From Thioalkalivibrio sp. ALE31 (GTDB taxonomy: Bacteria > Pseudomonadota > Gammaproteobacteria > Ectothiorhodospirales > Ectothiorhodospiraceae): DNA of 64,000 nucleotides. A model generated the notes under the pieces. It saw only the letters and a program-made list of their open reading frames with translations. It did no database searches and was not told where the DNA came from. Positions 19,794-34,591 of the stretch are shown one piece after another. The translations under genes and the position numbers were made by a program. The stretch lies in NCBI RefSeq assembly GCF_000377405.1, contig NZ_KB905023.1:186001-250000 (forward strand), given 5' to 3'. How positions within the stretch are numbered: the stretch's first letter is position 1; each line of letters opens with the position of its first letter.

Positions 19794-20660
19794 ATGCCTG
19801 ATATTGTTCAGATTAGGTTTGATGGCGACCTTGTCGTAGACAACCGAGTCTCCATGCGGACACTTGGCAATACACTGTTCTATACGCAGAACGCGCTAGA
19901 GCGGGCGTATTTGGACATCCAGCGGCCAGGGGGCGTCTGGAAGCACGCCCGCCTAAAAACTACCGAACGAGAAGCAGTTCAGTTCCTTATTGAGCTGCCC
20001 GAACCCGGCAGCTACCTCCAACGCTTTATCTCCGCTAGCGAACTTGGGCGCGTCATTATTGACCGCGCATCGGCCGCCCTACAGACCGCACTAGATCAAG
20101 CCACCCGTCAGGCCGAACAGGAGCACCGCTCCTGGCGTGACGAAGTCCTCTCGCGCAGGCAACAGATCACCCAGGGCACCGTGACACCCCGAGACTACAC
20201 CGATCTACGTGACAATCCCGACCCAAGAACGGTACGCGCTTACGGCGACAAATCGATCGCAAAAGAGTTTGATAACGCTCTGCGCCCTATCAGATCGCCC
20301 TCTTCAGGTGAGAGCCAGCTAGACCTGACGCTATCCGGGACTCAGACGAGGACCATCCCCTTCGATCGAAACACTAGCGAGCTGCTCCACCAGGCAATCA
20401 GCACGCGGCAAGTTGGAGATCCAGTTATCTACGAGGGCCAGCTCCATCAGCTCGACCATAGAAATAAGAAAGGGAAGTTCGACAATACCGCAAACAACAA
20501 AACCACAAGCCTACTATTCTCTAGCGATGACGATGTAGATAAGGTGAGAAACCTGCTTGGCCAAAACCCATTCGCCTTCATTGGCTGTCCGGTAATCGAG
20601 TTTGGCTCTTTTGACCCCAACGCTGGGGATGTTCTTTTTATAGACTTAGTTGGGCAGTAA
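19794..20660 (+). CDS. Hypothetical protein of an AT-rich island behind the tRNA gene
   Basis: About 288 residues from ATG 19794, which has GGGGG 9 bases upstream; an in-frame ATG at 19749 would add 15 residues. I do not recognise the family. It is soluble, with no signal peptide. The start reads IVQIRFDGDLVVDNRVSMRT and is followed by a helix-rich segment; the middle is charged and the C-terminus (GCPVIEFGSFDPNAGDVLF) looks like beta structure. Codon use is markedly more AT-rich than neighbouring genes, which points to transfer. The stop is 3 bases before the next gene, so the two products probably work together. Confidence 0.72.
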   Translation: MPDIVQIRFDGDLVVDNRVSMRTLGNTLFYTQNALERAYLDIQRPGGVWKHARLKTTEREAVQFLIELPEPGSYLQRFISASELGRVIIDRASAALQTALDQATRQAEQEHRSWRDEVLSRRQQITQGTVTPRDYTDLRDNPDPRTVRAYGDKSIAKEFDNALRPIRSPSSGESQLDLTLSGTQTRTIPFDRNTSELLHQAISTRQVGDPVIYEGQLHQLDHRNKKGKFDNTANNKTTSLLFSSDDDVDKVRNLLGQNPFAFIGCPVIEFGSFDPNAGDVLFIDLVGQ

Positions 20661-20663
20661 CCC

Positions 20664-21347
20664 TTGGTAGACGTGATACGCGAACAATACCTGGCTGAGG
20701 TCGCCGCCATCTACCCTCTGCCTCGGGCAGTCGCGGTTCTCTATCTCGCCCTTGCCTCTCACGCCATAATAAAGTCGGAGGGCGAGCCCGCGTTGTTGTT
20801 TTTATGGCTTGAACCGCTGTCTGAAATCTTTTCCGCAACCGAAGGAATAGCTACCACACTCAGCCCACTGCTTTTGATTATTATATTGGTAGCAACCGGA
20901 GTCGCTTCTACGCTTTTTCACAGGCTAAACGCATTCCTTTACGACCTTCTTGACAAAAAAGCGCTTCCAAAAGTCGTCGAAATCCGCTCCTACATCAAGG
21001 AAGAATATGAAAGTGCGCGAGAGTTTTGGGCGACAATCCCCGGCGACAGGAGCACATACTTAGTCTCACTGGAAGAGCAGCTAAAAGCGAAGCTTAAGCG
21101 CTTTAGAGCGATTAATGGATGGGCAGAGTTCTTCTTCATCGTCACCCTATTTCACACTACTATTATCTTTGTCGAGGGCGCCCCTGTATTGAATACTATC
21201 ACCGCATTTGGGGCGCTCATCCTGGCAAGCACGCTTTTCGCGCGAGGCCTTTATTTTTATATTTCCAGTGTCACGCCGCCGCTAGTGGCCGTTAGGGCTG
21301 GGAAGGGGCAAAAAATCAAGCTCGGTGACGAAGATATCTTCCCATAA
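20664..21347 (+). CDS. Four-helix membrane protein of the AT-rich island
   Basis: 227 residues from a TTG start (20664); a GTG at 20673 is possible. Predicted membrane segments are near residues 17-36, 64-85, 150-171 and 176-198. Between helices two and three is a charged loop of about 60 residues (EEYESAREFWATIPGDR), and a short basic tail ends the protein. I do not recognise a family. The gene is 3 bases after the preceding stop and shares its AT-rich codon use, so they form a two-gene operon. A soluble protein coupled to a small multi-helix membrane protein resembles sensor/effector layouts in phage defence, but that is speculation. Confidence 0.72.
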   Translation: MVDVIREQYLAEVAAIYPLPRAVAVLYLALASHAIIKSEGEPALLFLWLEPLSEIFSATEGIATTLSPLLLIIILVATGVASTLFHRLNAFLYDLLDKKALPKVVEIRSYIKEEYESAREFWATIPGDRSTYLVSLEEQLKAKLKRFRAINGWAEFFFIVTLFHTTIIFVEGAPVLNTITAFGALILASTLFARGLYFYISSVTPPLVAVRAGKGQKIKLGDEDIFP

Positions 21348-21680
21348 CACCACCCCCAATAAATCCTCATTCATTGTTTCAAACGTACAGTTATTGACAG
21401 AACTCCAAGGCGGGACGCCCTACGGGCGCCCCGCTGTGCTCCGAAGCTCCCAGGTGTGGGTTCGCGTTTCGACGAAGACATCTGAACCCGGCGCTTCGAC
21501 GCCCAGCACCTGATTACCCTTTTCTTCTCCATACGCGCCGAGCTCGTCACTCCAGGCCTTCATTAAGGTGAGTGGACAACGGCGCAGTTCCTCTACGAAA
21601 CGCAGCCCGGAGGGTCAGACCTTGCTTTTTGCCTCTCTGGTGAAGGCGGGTCGAAAGGCAAGGCCTGTCCCGACTCACGA
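21348..21680. other. Non-coding boundary of the AT-rich island
   Basis: Base composition shifts from AT-rich to the genomic high-GC level at about 21400. An imperfect hairpin GCGGGACGCCC-TAC-GGGCGCCCCGC lies around 21412-21437 and may end the island operon. I found no repeat of the tRNA 3' end here that would mark an attachment site, and no supportable gene on either strand. Confidence 0.5.
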
Positions 21681-22109
21681 TCAGGCAGTCTCGGTGGTGA
21701 TGAGACCGCGCTGGAGGTCGACGGTGATTCGCTGGCCTTCGATGACCGTGGCGCAGGCCAGCAGGAAGATCTCGACGAACTCGTTGCGCTCCTCCTCCGG
21801 CATCTCCGAGGAGGTATTGGAACCATTGAAAGTGCCGAACATGGTGTCATGGGCACCCGCCGAGTAGAGGATCAGTCGCTGCATGGCGGTCTGGTCGTCC
21901 GGCGAGGGCGCAGCGGTATCCAGGACCGGCTCGTCCAGCTTCTGCTTGATGGTGGAATAGAGATGAAACAGATATTCCGCCGCGCTCTGGCGCCCCCGCC
22001 GATCCTGCAAGGTGAAATTGGCCGAAACCGCCTGGCCACTGCGGGCGCGCAGCACGATGTGCTTCGGCTCGGGCTGATCGTCGGCGTACGGGTTCAGGAT
22101 GTGGGCCAC
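21681..22109 (-). CDS. Hypothetical protein downstream of nrdJb
   Basis: 142 residues from a GTG at 22109, which has GGAG five bases upstream (TTTGGAGACATC); longer in-frame starts lack such a site. The protein is soluble and acidic (EMPEEERNEFVEIFLLACATVIEG near the C-terminus). I recognise no family. Codon use is high-GC like the chromosome, unlike the adjacent island. It lies 211 bases after the nrdJb stop on the same strand. Function unknown. Confidence 0.6.
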   Translation of the reverse strand: MAHILNPYADDQPEPKHIVLRARSGQAVSANFTLQDRRGRQSAAEYLFHLYSTIKQKLDEPVLDTAAPSPDDQTAMQRLILYSAGAHDTMFGTFNGSNTSSEMPEEERNEFVEIFLLACATVIEGQRITVDLQRGLITTETA

Positions 22110-28120: not shown

Positions 28121-28702
28121 TCAGCCCAGACGGCCGCGCAGGGGGCTGGTGCGCGGGAAGTGCGCCTGCAGGAATTCCATCTGGTCGGCCAGCACGCGCT
28201 TGCCCTTGAGGAAGATGTATTCCGCATGGGTCGGCGTGAACGGGATGGCCAGCAGTTGCATCCCGGCCTCTTCCGGCGTGAACCCGGCCTTGTGGTTGTT
28301 GCAGCGCTTGCAGGCGGTGACCACGTTGGTCCACGTGTCCTCGCCGTTCTGGCTGATGGGGGTCACATGGTCGCGCGACAGGTCGCGTTCGTAGAAATGC
28401 TGGCCGCAGTACAGACAAAGATGGGCATCGCGGCGGAACAGGGTGGTGTTGTTGAGCGGAGGGATGTAGTTGTTGAAACGGGACTGGCGGGTGCCATGGG
28501 TCGCGATGATCGAGTTGACCTCGACCCGCGACTGCAGCCCGGTGCGGGCGTTGATGCCGCCGCGCATGCGATAAAGCGGGCTGCCACAGGTGTAGGCCAC
28601 CTGCTCGGTGTAGTAGAGGCGCACGGCCTGCTCCAGGCCGATCCACTCCAGCGGCATGCCCGCGGCGTCCGTGCGCAGGACCTGATGCTCGTTCGGCAAC
28701 AT
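28121..28702 (-). CDS. HNH endonuclease family protein
   Basis: 193 residues. An HNH/zinc-binding domain sits in the middle: CLYCGQHF supplies the first cysteine pair, SRDHVTPISQNGED the catalytic histidine, and TACKRCNNHKAG the second cysteine pair and the HNH asparagine region. Chromosomal HNH proteins of this form are common in cyanobacteria and proteobacteria and have no settled role; there is no methyltransferase or phage gene nearby to suggest restriction or packaging. A near-perfect inverted repeat lies 26 bases upstream of its start. Confidence 0.88.
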   Translation of the reverse strand: MLPNEHQVLRTDAAGMPLEWIGLEQAVRLYYTEQVAYTCGSPLYRMRGGINARTGLQSRVEVNSIIATHGTRQSRFNNYIPPLNNTTLFRRDAHLCLYCGQHFYERDLSRDHVTPISQNGEDTWTNVVTACKRCNNHKAGFTPEEAGMQLLAIPFTPTHAEYIFLKGKRVLADQMEFLQAHFPRTSPLRGRLG

Positions 28703-30213: not shown

Positions 30214-30521
30214 TCATCGAAGGCTTTATCGCGCTGTACATCTTCATGCTCGCGGCCTTCACCGGCTACGAGATCATCTCCAAGGTGCCGGTCATCCTGC
30301 ACACCCCACTGATGTCCGGTTCCAACTTCGTCCACGGCATCGTGCTGGTCGGGACCATGGTCGCGCTGGGCCACGCCACGACCCCGCTGGAACAGGCCAT
30401 CGGCTTTGTCGCCGTGATCCTGGCCGCGGGCAACGCCGTGGGTGGCTACGTCGTCACCGAACGCATGCTGGAGATGTTCAAGACCAGCAAGAAGGACGAC
30501 AAGAAGGGAGATAACGCATGA
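30210..30521 (+). CDS. pntAB: NAD(P) transhydrogenase subunit alpha part 2 (membrane)
   Basis: 103 residues, all of the short membrane subunit. Three to four hydrophobic helices are visible: the N-terminal FIALYIFMLAAFTGYEI, the central SNFVHGIVLVGTMVALGH, and AIGFVAVILAAGNAVGGYVV. The tail is lysine-rich and cytoplasmic. It belongs to the proton-translocating domain II together with the N-terminal half of PntB. ATGA overlaps join it to both neighbours. Confidence 0.95.
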   Translation: MIIEGFIALYIFMLAAFTGYEIISKVPVILHTPLMSGSNFVHGIVLVGTMVALGHATTPLEQAIGFVAVILAAGNAVGGYVVTERMLEMFKTSKKDDKKGDNA

Positions 30522-31906
30522 GCATGATCATCAACCTCGCCTATTTTGCGGCGGCGGTACTGTTCATCGTCGGCCTCAAGCAGATGTCCTCGCCGACCAC
30601 CGCGCGGCCGGGCATCATCTGGGCCGGCGTGGGCATGGTGATCGCCACGCTCGTGACCTTCGTGCATCCGGAGATCTCCGGCGGCGTGAACTACACCCTG
30701 ATCATCCTGGGTATCGCCATCGGCGGCGCGCTGGCCTGGTGGAGCGGCAAGAAGGTCGCGATGACCGACATGCCGCAGATGATCGCGCTGTACAACGGCA
30801 TGGGCGGCGGCGCCGCGGCCGGCATCGGCGCGATCTACCTGCTGCAGGCGACCCCGGAAACCGTCAGCAACACCGGCCTGGCGATCGCCGTGACCGGCTC
30901 GCTGATCGGCTCGGTGGCCTTCTCCGGCTCGCTGGTGGCCTACGCCAAGCTGCAGGGCCTGATGAAGAAGACCTTCACCTTCGCTGGCCAGCAGGTCGTG
31001 AACATCGCGATCTTTGCCATCACCGTGATCCTCGGCTTCCTGATGGCCACCGGCGGCGGCGAGATCGGTTCGGCGACGCTGCTGCTGTTCTTCGTTCTGG
31101 CGCTGGCCTTCGGCATCCTGATGACGCTGCCGATCGGCGGCGCCGACATGCCGGTGGTCATCTCGCTGTACAACGCCCTGACCGGCCTGGCGGTCGGCCT
31201 GAAGGGGATCGTGCTCGACAATCCGGCGCTGATGATCGCCGGTATCGTGGTCGGCGCGGCCGGTACGCTGCTCACGCAGCTGATGGCCAAGGCGATGAAC
31301 CGCCCAATCAAGAACATCCTCTTCAGCCAGTTCGGCGGCTCCGCCGGCGGCGCCGAGGAAGAGATCGAAGGCACGATGAAGGAGATCCAGGCCAACGATG
31401 CCGGGATCATGATGGCCTACGCCGAGAAGGTCATCATCGTGCCGGGCTACGGCATGGCCGTCGCGCAGGCGCAGCACAAGATCTGGGAATTCACCCAGCT
31501 GCTGCAGAAGCGCGGCGTGGACGTGAAGTTCGCGATCCACCCGGTCGCGGGCCGCATGCCCGGGCACATGAACGTACTGCTGGCCGAGGCCGGCGTGCCC
31601 TACGACATCATCTTCGATCTCGACGAGATCAACGAGGAGTTCAAGACCGCGGATGTCGCGATGGTGATCGGCGCGAATGACGTCGTGAACCCGGTGGCCC
31701 GGACCAATCCGGAATCGCCGATCTACGGCATGCCGATCCTGAACGCCGACCAGGCCCACAACGTCATCTGCGTGAAGCGCGGCAAGGGCTCCGGTTTCTC
31801 GGGCATCGAGAACCACCTGTTCTATGCCGACAACAACCAGATGCTCTACGGCGACGGCCAGAAGGTGGCCGCCGAACTCGTGGCATCGGTCAAGGCCCTC
31901 GGCTAA
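30518..31906 (+). CDS. pntB: NAD(P) transhydrogenase subunit beta
   Basis: 462 residues. The N-terminal two thirds form eight to nine membrane helices of domain II (for example GIIWAGVGMVIATLVTFVHP and ATLLLFFVLALAFGILM). The C-terminal domain III binds NADP(H), with VIIVPGYGMAVAQAQHK near residue 305 as its dinucleotide motif and GANDVVNPVAR as the signature near the end. Together the three genes make NADPH for biosynthesis, useful for CO2 fixation in a chemolithotroph (inference). The operon ends with a clear terminator. Confidence 0.96.
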   Translation: MSMIINLAYFAAAVLFIVGLKQMSSPTTARPGIIWAGVGMVIATLVTFVHPEISGGVNYTLIILGIAIGGALAWWSGKKVAMTDMPQMIALYNGMGGGAAAGIGAIYLLQATPETVSNTGLAIAVTGSLIGSVAFSGSLVAYAKLQGLMKKTFTFAGQQVVNIAIFAITVILGFLMATGGGEIGSATLLLFFVLALAFGILMTLPIGGADMPVVISLYNALTGLAVGLKGIVLDNPALMIAGIVVGAAGTLLTQLMAKAMNRPIKNILFSQFGGSAGGAEEEIEGTMKEIQANDAGIMMAYAEKVIIVPGYGMAVAQAQHKIWEFTQLLQKRGVDVKFAIHPVAGRMPGHMNVLLAEAGVPYDIIFDLDEINEEFKTADVAMVIGANDVVNPVARTNPESPIYGMPILNADQAHNVICVKRGKGSGFSGIENHLFYADNNQMLYGDGQKVAAELVASVKALG

Positions 31907-31951
31907 TAGCCCGCCCCAAATGCGGGACCCGGATACGGGTCCCGCCACCGA

Positions 31952-31987
31952 AACCCGGCCAACCGCCTCGCGGTGCCGGGTTTTTTG
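31952..31987 (+). terminator. Rho-independent terminator of the pnt operon
   Basis: The stem AACCCGGC / GCCGGGTT (31952-31959 and 31975-31982) is followed by a run of six T (31981-31986). A second hairpin, GCGGGACCC / GGGTCCCGC (31922-31944), precedes it directly. Confidence 0.88.
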
Positions 31988-32298
31988 TTGGCCAGGAAAA
32001 CACTGCTCAATGTACACACTCGCGCTCGAGTTGCTTTTGCGGGCGAATGAATCAGTGCTTCCCCAAGGCTCGATGAACACCCGGAACGGCGTCACAATTG
32101 TACACACCCTGTACAGACTACCCACAAGCGGTGAAACCAACGGCCGCTTAGCACACAGAGCGCGCACTCCGTTTCACATAAAGCTCATAACGAACTGTTT
32201 ATTCGGTTCTTTTGGCTTCTGGTCGATTTTTGGCCAATCCAAGACGCCCCCAGCAGTAACAAGCATTTAGGGCCCTTCCCCCCGTTTCACCCACGGAG
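31988..32298. other. AT-richer non-coding stretch before the DnaA boxes
   Basis: The gap between pntB and priA (31907-32386) is 480 bases. After the terminator, 32040-32275 is clearly less GC-rich than the genome average and has no supportable gene. It contains TGTACACACTCG and TTGTACACACC motifs (about 32010 and 32098) and a weak DnaA-box-like CTACCCACA at 32118-32126. Confidence 0.45.
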
Positions 32299-32321
32299 TT
32301 ATCCACAGCTTTTGTGGATAA
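32299..32321. promoter_or_regulatory. Two perfect DnaA boxes in inverted orientation upstream of priA
   Basis: TTATCCACA at 32299-32307 and TGTGGATAA at 32313-32321 are both exact matches to the E. coli high-affinity DnaA box, facing each other across a 5-base spacer. They lie 66 bases before the priA start. They could allow DnaA control of priA or titrate DnaA. The two copies also form a hairpin, so RNA function is possible too. Confidence 0.75.
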
Positions 32322-32386
32322 CAACCCGACCCGCCCTGAGGCAACCGACTCCCCCTTCCCGGGCCCCGACGCAGTAAACTGGGCCC

Positions 32387-34591
32387 ATGCCCGTCGCGCC
32401 CCGAATCGCCCGCATCGCGCTGGATCGCCCCCTGGATCGGCTGTTTGACTACCGCATCCCCGAAGGCCTGTCGCTCACGCCCGGACAGCGGGTTCGCGTG
32501 CCCTTCGGCCGAGGCTCCACGGTCGGCCTGGTGGTCGAGCTGGCGACCACCAGTGACGTGCCGCCCGCACGCCTGCGGGCGGTGAACGAGGCCCCGGAGA
32601 GCGAACCGCTCCTCTCGCCCCGCCTGCTGGAGCTCCTGCGATTCGGGGCCCGCTACTACCATCACCCGCTGGGCGAGGCCCTGCTGGGGGCACTTCCACC
32701 GGCCCTGCGCCACGGCGACCCGTTGCCGGCCCTCACCCCCGAAACCCTGTGGCGGATCACCCCCGAGGGCACCCGCGCCCTGGCCGACGGCCTCGCGCGC
32801 GGTCGGCGCCAGCAGGCGGTCCTCCGCGCCCTGGAGCCGGGACACGCGGCCACGGCCCTGGATCGCGCCACCCTGGCCGCCGCGACCGGCCTGCAGCTGG
32901 CCCCGCGAGAACTGCGCGACTATGAGGCGCGTGGCTGGCTGGAGACGATCACGCCCGACCCGACACAGCCGCCACCGCCGACCACCAGCGACCACGATCT
33001 GACCCCCGACCAGCGCACCGCCGTTGAGGCCCTGACACCCGGGACCGGCGCACCGCTGCTGCTGGAGGGCGTGACCGGGAGCGGCAAGACCGAGGTCTAC
33101 CTGCAGATGGCCGAACGCGTGCTGGCAGGCGGGCACGCCGCGCTGTTCCTCATCCCCGAGATCGCCCTGACCCCGCAATTGAGCGCGCGCATCCAGCAGC
33201 GGTTTCCCGGGCAGATCGCCCTGCTCCACTCCGGCCTGGCCGAGGGCGAACGCCTGCGCGCCTGGGAGGCCGCCCGCCAGGGTCAGCGCCGCATCGTCGT
33301 CGGCACCCGCTCGGCCCTCTTCACCCCGCTGCCCGACCTCGGCCTGATCATCGTCGACGAGGAACACGACAGCGCCTTCAAACAGCAGGACGGGTTCCGC
33401 TACAACGCGCGCGACCTGGCGATCAAGCGCGGCCAGCTGGAGCAGGCCGCGGTGGTTCTGGGCTCCGCCACCCCGACCCTGGAAAGCCTGCACGCGGCCA
33501 CCACGGGCCGTTACGCCCACGCCCGGCTGACCACACGCCCGGACGGGACCCGCCCACCCACCGTCGAGACCGTGGACACGCGCGTACATCTCCCGGACGA
33601 GGGTCTGACCGCCCCGCTGCTCGAGGCCATGCAGCAGACCCTGGCGGCCGGCCACCAGTGTTTTCTCCTGCTCAACCGCCGCGGCTTCGCCCGCGTACTG
33701 GCCTGCGACGCCTGCGGCTGGGTGGCCGAGTGCCCGGATTGCGATGCGCGACTGACCATTCACGCGCACAACCCGCGCGCTGTCTGTCACCTCTGCGGCC
33801 ACCAGGAACCCCGCCCCCAGCGCTGCCCGGAATGCGGCGAGCCGCTGGCGCAGCGCGGCCTCGGCACCCAGCGGCTGGAACAGGCCCTGGCGCGGCACTT
33901 CCCGACCACCCCCCTGATCCGCCTGGACCGCGACAGCATCCGTCACAAGGGCGCGCTGGAGGCGGCACTGGACCGTATCCGCCAGCTGGATGCCGCGATC
34001 GTGGTCGGCACCCAGATGCTGGCGAAGGGCCACGACTTCCCCCAGGTCGGACTGGTCGGTGTGATCGACGTGGACCAGGGCCTGTTCAGCGTCGACCTGC
34101 GCGCCACGGAAAACACCCTCCAGCTCATCGTGCAGGCCGCCGGCCGCGCCGGGCGTGGTTCCGGCGGCGGTCGCGTGCTGCTCCAGACCGGGCATCCCGA
34201 CCACCCCCTGATTCGCGGACTGGATGCCGCCGACTACCCGGCAATGGTCGCGCCCCTGCTGGAGGAACGCGCCGCCGCCGAGCTGCCGCCCCACGGCCAC
34301 CTGGCCCTGGTCCGGGTCGAGGCCGGCGATGCCGAGACCACCCGCCGCCATGCCGAGCGCGTCGCCACCCACCTGCGCAGCGCCGCGACCGAGGGCCTGC
34401 GGGTACTGGGCCCGGCCCCCGCGCCGCGTCATCGCGTCAACCGCCGCTTCCGCGAACAGATCCTGCTGCAGTCCACGCGCCGCAACCCCCTGCACGAGGG
34501 CCTCGCACGGGCGCGCCACGCCTGGCAGGCCGACGACCTGCCGCGCGGCACCCGCATCGCCATCGACATCGACCCCGTCTCGCTCGCCTGA
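32387..34591 (+). CDS. priA: Primosomal protein N' (replication restart helicase)
   Basis: 734 residues. PriA reloads the replisome at stalled forks. The N-terminal 3' DNA-binding domain (RIARIALDRPLDRLFDYRIP) is followed by a DEAH-type helicase: Walker A GVTGSGKTEVY near residues 226-236 and DEEH near residue 325. The zinc-binding insertion has four CxxC pairs (CDACGW, CPDCDA, CHLCGH, CPECGE). Helicase motif VI is at QAAGRAGRG. The start at 32387 is the first ATG of the frame and lies just after the DnaA-box pair. Confidence 0.96.
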   Translation: MPVAPRIARIALDRPLDRLFDYRIPEGLSLTPGQRVRVPFGRGSTVGLVVELATTSDVPPARLRAVNEAPESEPLLSPRLLELLRFGARYYHHPLGEALLGALPPALRHGDPLPALTPETLWRITPEGTRALADGLARGRRQQAVLRALEPGHAATALDRATLAAATGLQLAPRELRDYEARGWLETITPDPTQPPPPTTSDHDLTPDQRTAVEALTPGTGAPLLLEGVTGSGKTEVYLQMAERVLAGGHAALFLIPEIALTPQLSARIQQRFPGQIALLHSGLAEGERLRAWEAARQGQRRIVVGTRSALFTPLPDLGLIIVDEEHDSAFKQQDGFRYNARDLAIKRGQLEQAAVVLGSATPTLESLHAATTGRYAHARLTTRPDGTRPPTVETVDTRVHLPDEGLTAPLLEAMQQTLAAGHQCFLLLNRRGFARVLACDACGWVAECPDCDARLTIHAHNPRAVCHLCGHQEPRPQRCPECGEPLAQRGLGTQRLEQALARHFPTTPLIRLDRDSIRHKGALEAALDRIRQLDAAIVVGTQMLAKGHDFPQVGLVGVIDVDQGLFSVDLRATENTLQLIVQAAGRAGRGSGGGRVLLQTGHPDHPLIRGLDAADYPAMVAPLLEERAAAELPPHGHLALVRVEAGDAETTRRHAERVATHLRSAATEGLRVLGPAPAPRHRVNRRFREQILLQSTRRNPLHEGLARARHAWQADDLPRGTRIAIDIDPVSLA

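Follow-up and report, generated by a model that had tools for sequence, protein, structure and literature searches.

A facing pair of DnaA boxes upstream of priA

What is the role of two perfect DnaA boxes which face each other in front of the gene for the replication restart helicase? The stretch of DNA we have analyzed (the window, 64 kb of the Thioalkalivibrio sp. ALE31 genome) contains the perfect box TTATCCACA at 32299–32307 on the forward strand (box II) and again at 32313–32321 on the reverse strand (box I). They are placed head-to-head with a gap of 5 bp, 65 bases before the ATG of priA, which occupies 32387–34591 on the forward strand (NF004067, 837 bits versus a cut-off of 763). The PriA proteins of two named Thioalkalivibrio genomes are 91% identical to the one in the window. 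The upstream neighbor, also on the forward strand (30518–31906), codes for a pntB-like transhydrogenase subunit beta (NF006974, 394 bits, under the cut-off of 689). Other features of the window are a decrease in GC content at 20001–22000 (down to 0.547, compared with about 0.6–0.7 elsewhere) and a reading frame of 193 amino acids on the reverse strand (28121–28702), HNH endonuclease-like by eye, which adjoins a ferrochelatase-like frame.

A preliminary description of this DNA had pointed out the position, perfection and rarity of the pair, and all three are confirmed. No other perfect DnaA boxes are found in the window, where 0.07 are expected, and none of 100 shuffles contained two. Across the 16 contigs of the assembly (2,770,361 bases) there are 9 perfect boxes, and the pair before priA is the only case in these 2.77 Mb where perfect boxes face each other with a gap of 0–20 bp.

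A degenerate box which had escaped the earlier description, TCACCCACG, is found at 32287–32295 on the forward strand (box III, three mismatches). Its distance to box II, 12 bp, is that of E. coli DARS1 and DARS2. Read forward, the core is TCACCCACG gag TTATCCACA gcttt TGTGGATAA: box III, 12 bp, box II, 14 bp, and box I in the opposite orientation to the other two. Both E. coli sites have this same grammar. According to the excerpts of PMC5742627, the published DARS core is formed by boxes I–III, with equal spacing at both sites and box I reversed; the head-to-head pair of boxes I and II is termed characteristic and essential in the excerpts of PMC10380432. In most of the other cores we have found, box III is of the CCACA or CACA type. 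Judging from its sequence, the region 32118–32321 is very probably a DnaA-reactivating sequence of the DARS type.

DnaA boxes within an AT-richer intergenic stretch are also what a replication origin would present. Nevertheless, GC skew is negative throughout the 338-kb contig (all 34 bins of 10 kb) and does not switch at the site, and dnaA is found on another contig. The skew check proposed in the preliminary description indicates no origin here: The absence of a switch led us to reject oriC, whose probability is negligible.

Within the priA leader, the pair might also act as an RNA hairpin, or be an unrelated palindrome; its 10-bp arms do form an RNA fold (z −2.24, with 7 of 200 shuffles folding equally well). 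On the other hand, boxes II and I of 85 cores contain 51 deviations from the consensus, none of them compensated in the other arm, while box III and the far box described below are outside the hairpin. We have rejected the RNA hairpin since compensatory changes are absent, and an explanation of this kind is most unlikely.

Sites flanking the core

The weak box which had been described at 32118 does exist. It is CTACCCACA, at 32118–32126 on the forward strand, 181 bp before box II, with two mismatches to TTATNCACA. Two candidate sites, absent from the preliminary description, are found amid the boxes. An IHF-like site, TAACGAACTGTTT, at 32188–32200 (position −111 from box II), is a weak copy of the consensus YAANNNNTTGATW, with two mismatches; a Fis-like site, GGTCGATTTTTGGCC, at 32221–32235 (position −78), has a single mismatch to the consensus GNNYANNNNNTRNNC. 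All three elements are on the box III side of the core. Each of them is imperfect, yet they are aligned across the loci of the genus: In the alignment of 10 priA loci, the far box column reads CTACCCACA in six cases, ATACCCACA in two, CTGCCCACA in one and TTATTCACA in one. Directly before the far box, at 32098–32117, the window presents TTGTACACA followed by CTGTACAG; repeats of the TGTACA type are conserved there in most of the ten loci of the alignment.

These positions are fixed in other genomes. We have collected 87 cores, reduced to 85 after removing palindromic doubles and to 74 after removing those over 70% alike. Same-direction TTATNCACA is present between −205 and −170 from box II in 40 of the 85 cores (0.095 are expected by shuffling), its fifth base being G in 24, T in 10, A in 6 and C in none, while the reverse-direction sequence is not found there in any of the 85. 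Among the 74 non-redundant cores, 38 have the far box, 38 have an IHF consensus (one mismatch at most) starting at −112 to −109, and 26 have a strict Fis consensus starting exactly at −78. Elsewhere in the 74 cores, no single position has more than two matches for either IHF or Fis (for Fis, outside −79 to −77). The distance between the starts of the far box and the IHF site is 78–80 bp in 14 cores and 68–71 bp, about one helical turn shorter, in 5. The IHF-like and Fis-like sites of the window are imperfect copies at positions which are fixed in other cores, and may correspond to the IHF and Fis sites on the box III side of DARS2.

Other sites in the genome and sites without box I

The genome contains a second complete site at C1:628100–628129, between mrp and metG. 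Its flank has the far box TTATGCACA at −191, the IHF-like site CAACTTGCTGTTT at −111 and the Fis-like site GGTCGATTTTTAACC at −78. A different arrangement is found at C2:216427 (L002:1312–1509), with the far box TTATGCACA, the IHF-like site GATCAAGGTGTTG and boxes III and II; both box I and a Fis-like site are absent. It is possibly a third DnaA-control site, of another kind.

The preliminary description had proposed titration of DnaA, as in datA. DnaA-reactivating sequences act in reverse of datA, and a site which binds or inactivates DnaA would have some resemblance to the window, where DnaA boxes are found at either side of the IHF-like site, as in E. coli datA. We consider datA a less fitting analogue than DARS because a head-to-head pair with a third box in DARS spacing is the mark of DnaA-reactivating sequences, and a Fis-like site is also present. 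A comparison with sites without box I points in the same direction. Among 44 sites with a far box and box I (two mismatches at most), 38 have a Fis site (up to one mismatch) and 33 an IHF site (up to two). Nine sites have a far box and a recognizable box III without box I: IHF is found in 7 of the 9 and Fis in only 1 of the 9, unlike the window site, although this sample is small and its members are related. One of the nine is the site at C2:216427 of this genome. The other 13 of the 22 sites which lack box I were excluded, as their box III has more than three mismatches (most are the same loci read out of register); a further site, which has three mismatches in box I, was counted in neither class. 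We do not call the sites without box I datA since they share its parts in another order. All in all, a datA-like or plain titration site before priA is quite improbable.

Distribution in related genomes

The perfect facing pair was sought in 47 genomes of the family, allowing any gap from 0 to 20 bp. It was found in 21 of them, with a gap of exactly 5 in every match. The 3-kb loci of these 21 contain PriA in 10 cases, always with the pair upstream, and PriA is absent from the other 11.

The three-box pattern (box III cut to CACA, no more than two mismatches overall) is present in 295 of 369 genomes of the class, and the reversed pattern, used as a control, has no match in any of the 369. Within the family, the matches listed do not include those of G042–G045. 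In a sample of the phylum 206 of 398 genomes match; counted by hand, this class contributes 119 of 137 and the other classes 87 of 261, for the most part from family f207. Families f206, f216, f219 and f223 have no match in this sample. The counted genomes are related, so they are not independent. Family f107, from the same class, lacks the core at up to two mismatches in 10 of 11 genomes: It has either lost it or has a strongly diverged form.

Conservation in relatives, suggested as a check in the preliminary description, holds for the genus. In a sample of 30 genomes, the core is before priA in all 25 with a detected PriA, 56–253 bp before the PriA N-terminal domain; most of the other five are incomplete assemblies. 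It does not extend to the sister genus g2, where the core is at priA in none of 10 genomes among the matches listed; all ten have cores elsewhere, at up to three mismatches. For the class we have taken 80 of the 295 matching genomes (G394 left out), of which three have no PriA. In 38 of the remaining 77 the core is no more than 325 bp upstream of the PriA N-terminal domain, with the same orientation in all 38, and in the other 39 no core is near the detected PriA, among the matches listed.

A set of 80 PriA loci, mostly from named genomes, gives a similar picture. Boxes II and I (two mismatches at most between them) are found within 600 bp upstream in 38 of the 80, that is, 38 of 79 loci which can be judged, as L016 has no upstream sequence, and the pair before priA in this set has a third box 12 bp upstream. 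The 38 include Dyella, Luteibacter, Lysobacter, Luteimonas, Rhodanobacter, Sideroxydans and Leeia, but no Marinobacter locus and not Vibrio variabilis. Five loci have two tandem groups of boxes before priA: L033, with two full cores 272 bp apart, L034, and three (L025, L032 and L063) with a full core farther out and a group with a weak box I, or none, nearer to priA.

We searched for eight proteins in the neighborhood of 30 class cores (L114–L143): PriA was found in 9, while MetG, Mrp, MutH, RppH, UvrB, BioD and PntB were found in none. Beyond these eight, there may be other recurrent neighbors. In 12 one-contig genomes (sizes rounded), the listed cores are placed at 0.04–0.92 of the half-circle from dnaA, without any rule that we could see.

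The preliminary description also suggested that DnaA could regulate priA. A conserved DnaA site does precede this gene, and its recurrent place and single orientation (38 of 38) would suit an operator for DnaA control of priA transcription, without a role in nucleotide exchange. It is doubtful that priA control is the main role, because the same module is present between mrp and metG and the listed cores of 39 of the 77 class genomes are away from PriA; full copies away from priA are found in this genome and in many others. Moreover, a simple operator does not need fixed IHF, Fis and far box sites. A promoter scan of 31800–32450 found no sigma-70-like promoter, which says little for or against this possibility. 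We regard such an operator as improbable.

Partner proteins and proposed mechanism

The genome codes for the putative partners of the site. DnaA is present (TIGR00362, 597 bits), and its end can be aligned with the complete structure of E. coli domain IV (1J1V, 94 residues). It contains the motif SRFGWGL, which we take to include the arginine finger and the AID-2 leucine of E. coli. Hda (237.6 bits) and both IHF alpha and IHF beta are above their cut-offs, and a Fis-family protein with 97 bits is just under the E. coli Fis cut-off of 99. The anatomy of the site, its conservation and the genes for DnaA, IHF, Hda and a Fis-family protein are all found in the sequences themselves.

By analogy with E. 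coli, we can propose how binding, nucleotide exchange and timing might take place at the window site. ADP-DnaA would bind boxes II and I head-to-head, assisted by box III; IHF would bend the DNA between the far box and the core, and Fis would bind next to the core. The complex would drive the release of ADP from DnaA, and apo-DnaA could then take up ATP and be able to start replication at oriC. Any influence on the transcription of priA would be secondary.

Some observations are against a DARS. In the window, box III has three mismatches, the far box and the IHF-like site two each, and the Fis-like site one; the order, core-Fis-IHF, is not that of E. coli DARS2, and the Fis-family score is under the cut-off. 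Among the matches listed, the core is at PriA in 0 of 10 genomes of g2 and absent from PriA in 39 of 77 genomes of the class.

Comparison with known systems

E. coli is the organism in which DnaA recycling has been elucidated. DARS were reportedly first described by Fujimitsu in 2009, in a paper which is cited for similar sequences in many proteobacteria. In the excerpts consulted, a review has one sentence on such sequences in many proteobacteria (PMC10380432), and a printed comparison includes seven near relatives (PMC8682772). The excerpts of PMC4245941, PMC4585315, PMC5742627, PMC12371093, PMC8682772, PMC10380432, PMC5010248, PMC13220808 and PMC10218098 contain no text we could find on a DARS at priA or on the order core-Fis-IHF-far box.

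E. coli DARS2, between rppH and mutH, has the core TTCTTCACA act CTATCCACA gaaaa GGTGAATAA when read in the same direction. Boxes I–III are equal in spacing and orientation to those of the window, and on the box III side DARS2 has matches to the IHF and Fis consensus and one more DnaA box, to which the imperfect sites of the window may correspond. Measured in the same way, the IHF matches of DARS2 are at −99 and −83, its Fis match is at −137 and its additional box, reversed and perfect, at −197, whereas the window and most cores examined have Fis at −78, IHF near −111 and a forward far box near −190, with different neighbor genes. The published order of DARS2 is core-IBS-FBS in the excerpts of PMC4245941, and its box V adjoins the Fis sites in those of PMC8682772. 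The order in the window is core-Fis-IHF and its location is before priA, so we do not classify it as a DARS2 orthologue.

The DARS1 core, between bioD and uvrB, is TAATACACA tgg TTATCCACA ggaat AGTGGATAA in the same direction. Its box II is identical to that of the window, and boxes I–III have the same spacing and orientation. It is described as independent of IHF and Fis in the excerpts of PMC4585315. We have detected a single weak IHF match in DARS1 (L113), TAACCAGTTAAAA, with two mismatches, at −111, the IHF position of the wider family; it could be a remnant of a decayed full module, or it may be due to chance.

E. coli datA, found near queG beside the tRNA-Gly genes, contains TTGTAAACA gag TTATCCACA, an IHF match at +65 and TTATTCACA at +162. 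As in the window, DnaA boxes flank the IHF site on both sides and two boxes are grouped at 12-bp spacing. The differences are that this group is found at the opposite side of the IHF site, that a reversed box I at 14 bp is missing, and that the activity of datA is the opposite of that of a DARS; no strict Fis consensus is found between the datA boxes. These differences also argue against titration, and the arrangement of boxes about the IHF site led us to reject datA membership for the window site.

In summary, 295 of the 369 genomes of the class share one grammar, with fixed IHF, Fis and far box positions. These loci can serve to find out how general DnaA reactivation is, and if a single order of Fis and IHF is required. 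Tentatively, far box-IHF-Fis-III-II-I might be a widespread, perhaps ancestral, plan for DARS in Gammaproteobacteria, with the stretch before priA as a recurrent location, from which DARS1 and DARS2 of E. coli might have descended by rearrangement of this plan, and box I and Fis might separate a reactivating site from a datA-like inactivating one.
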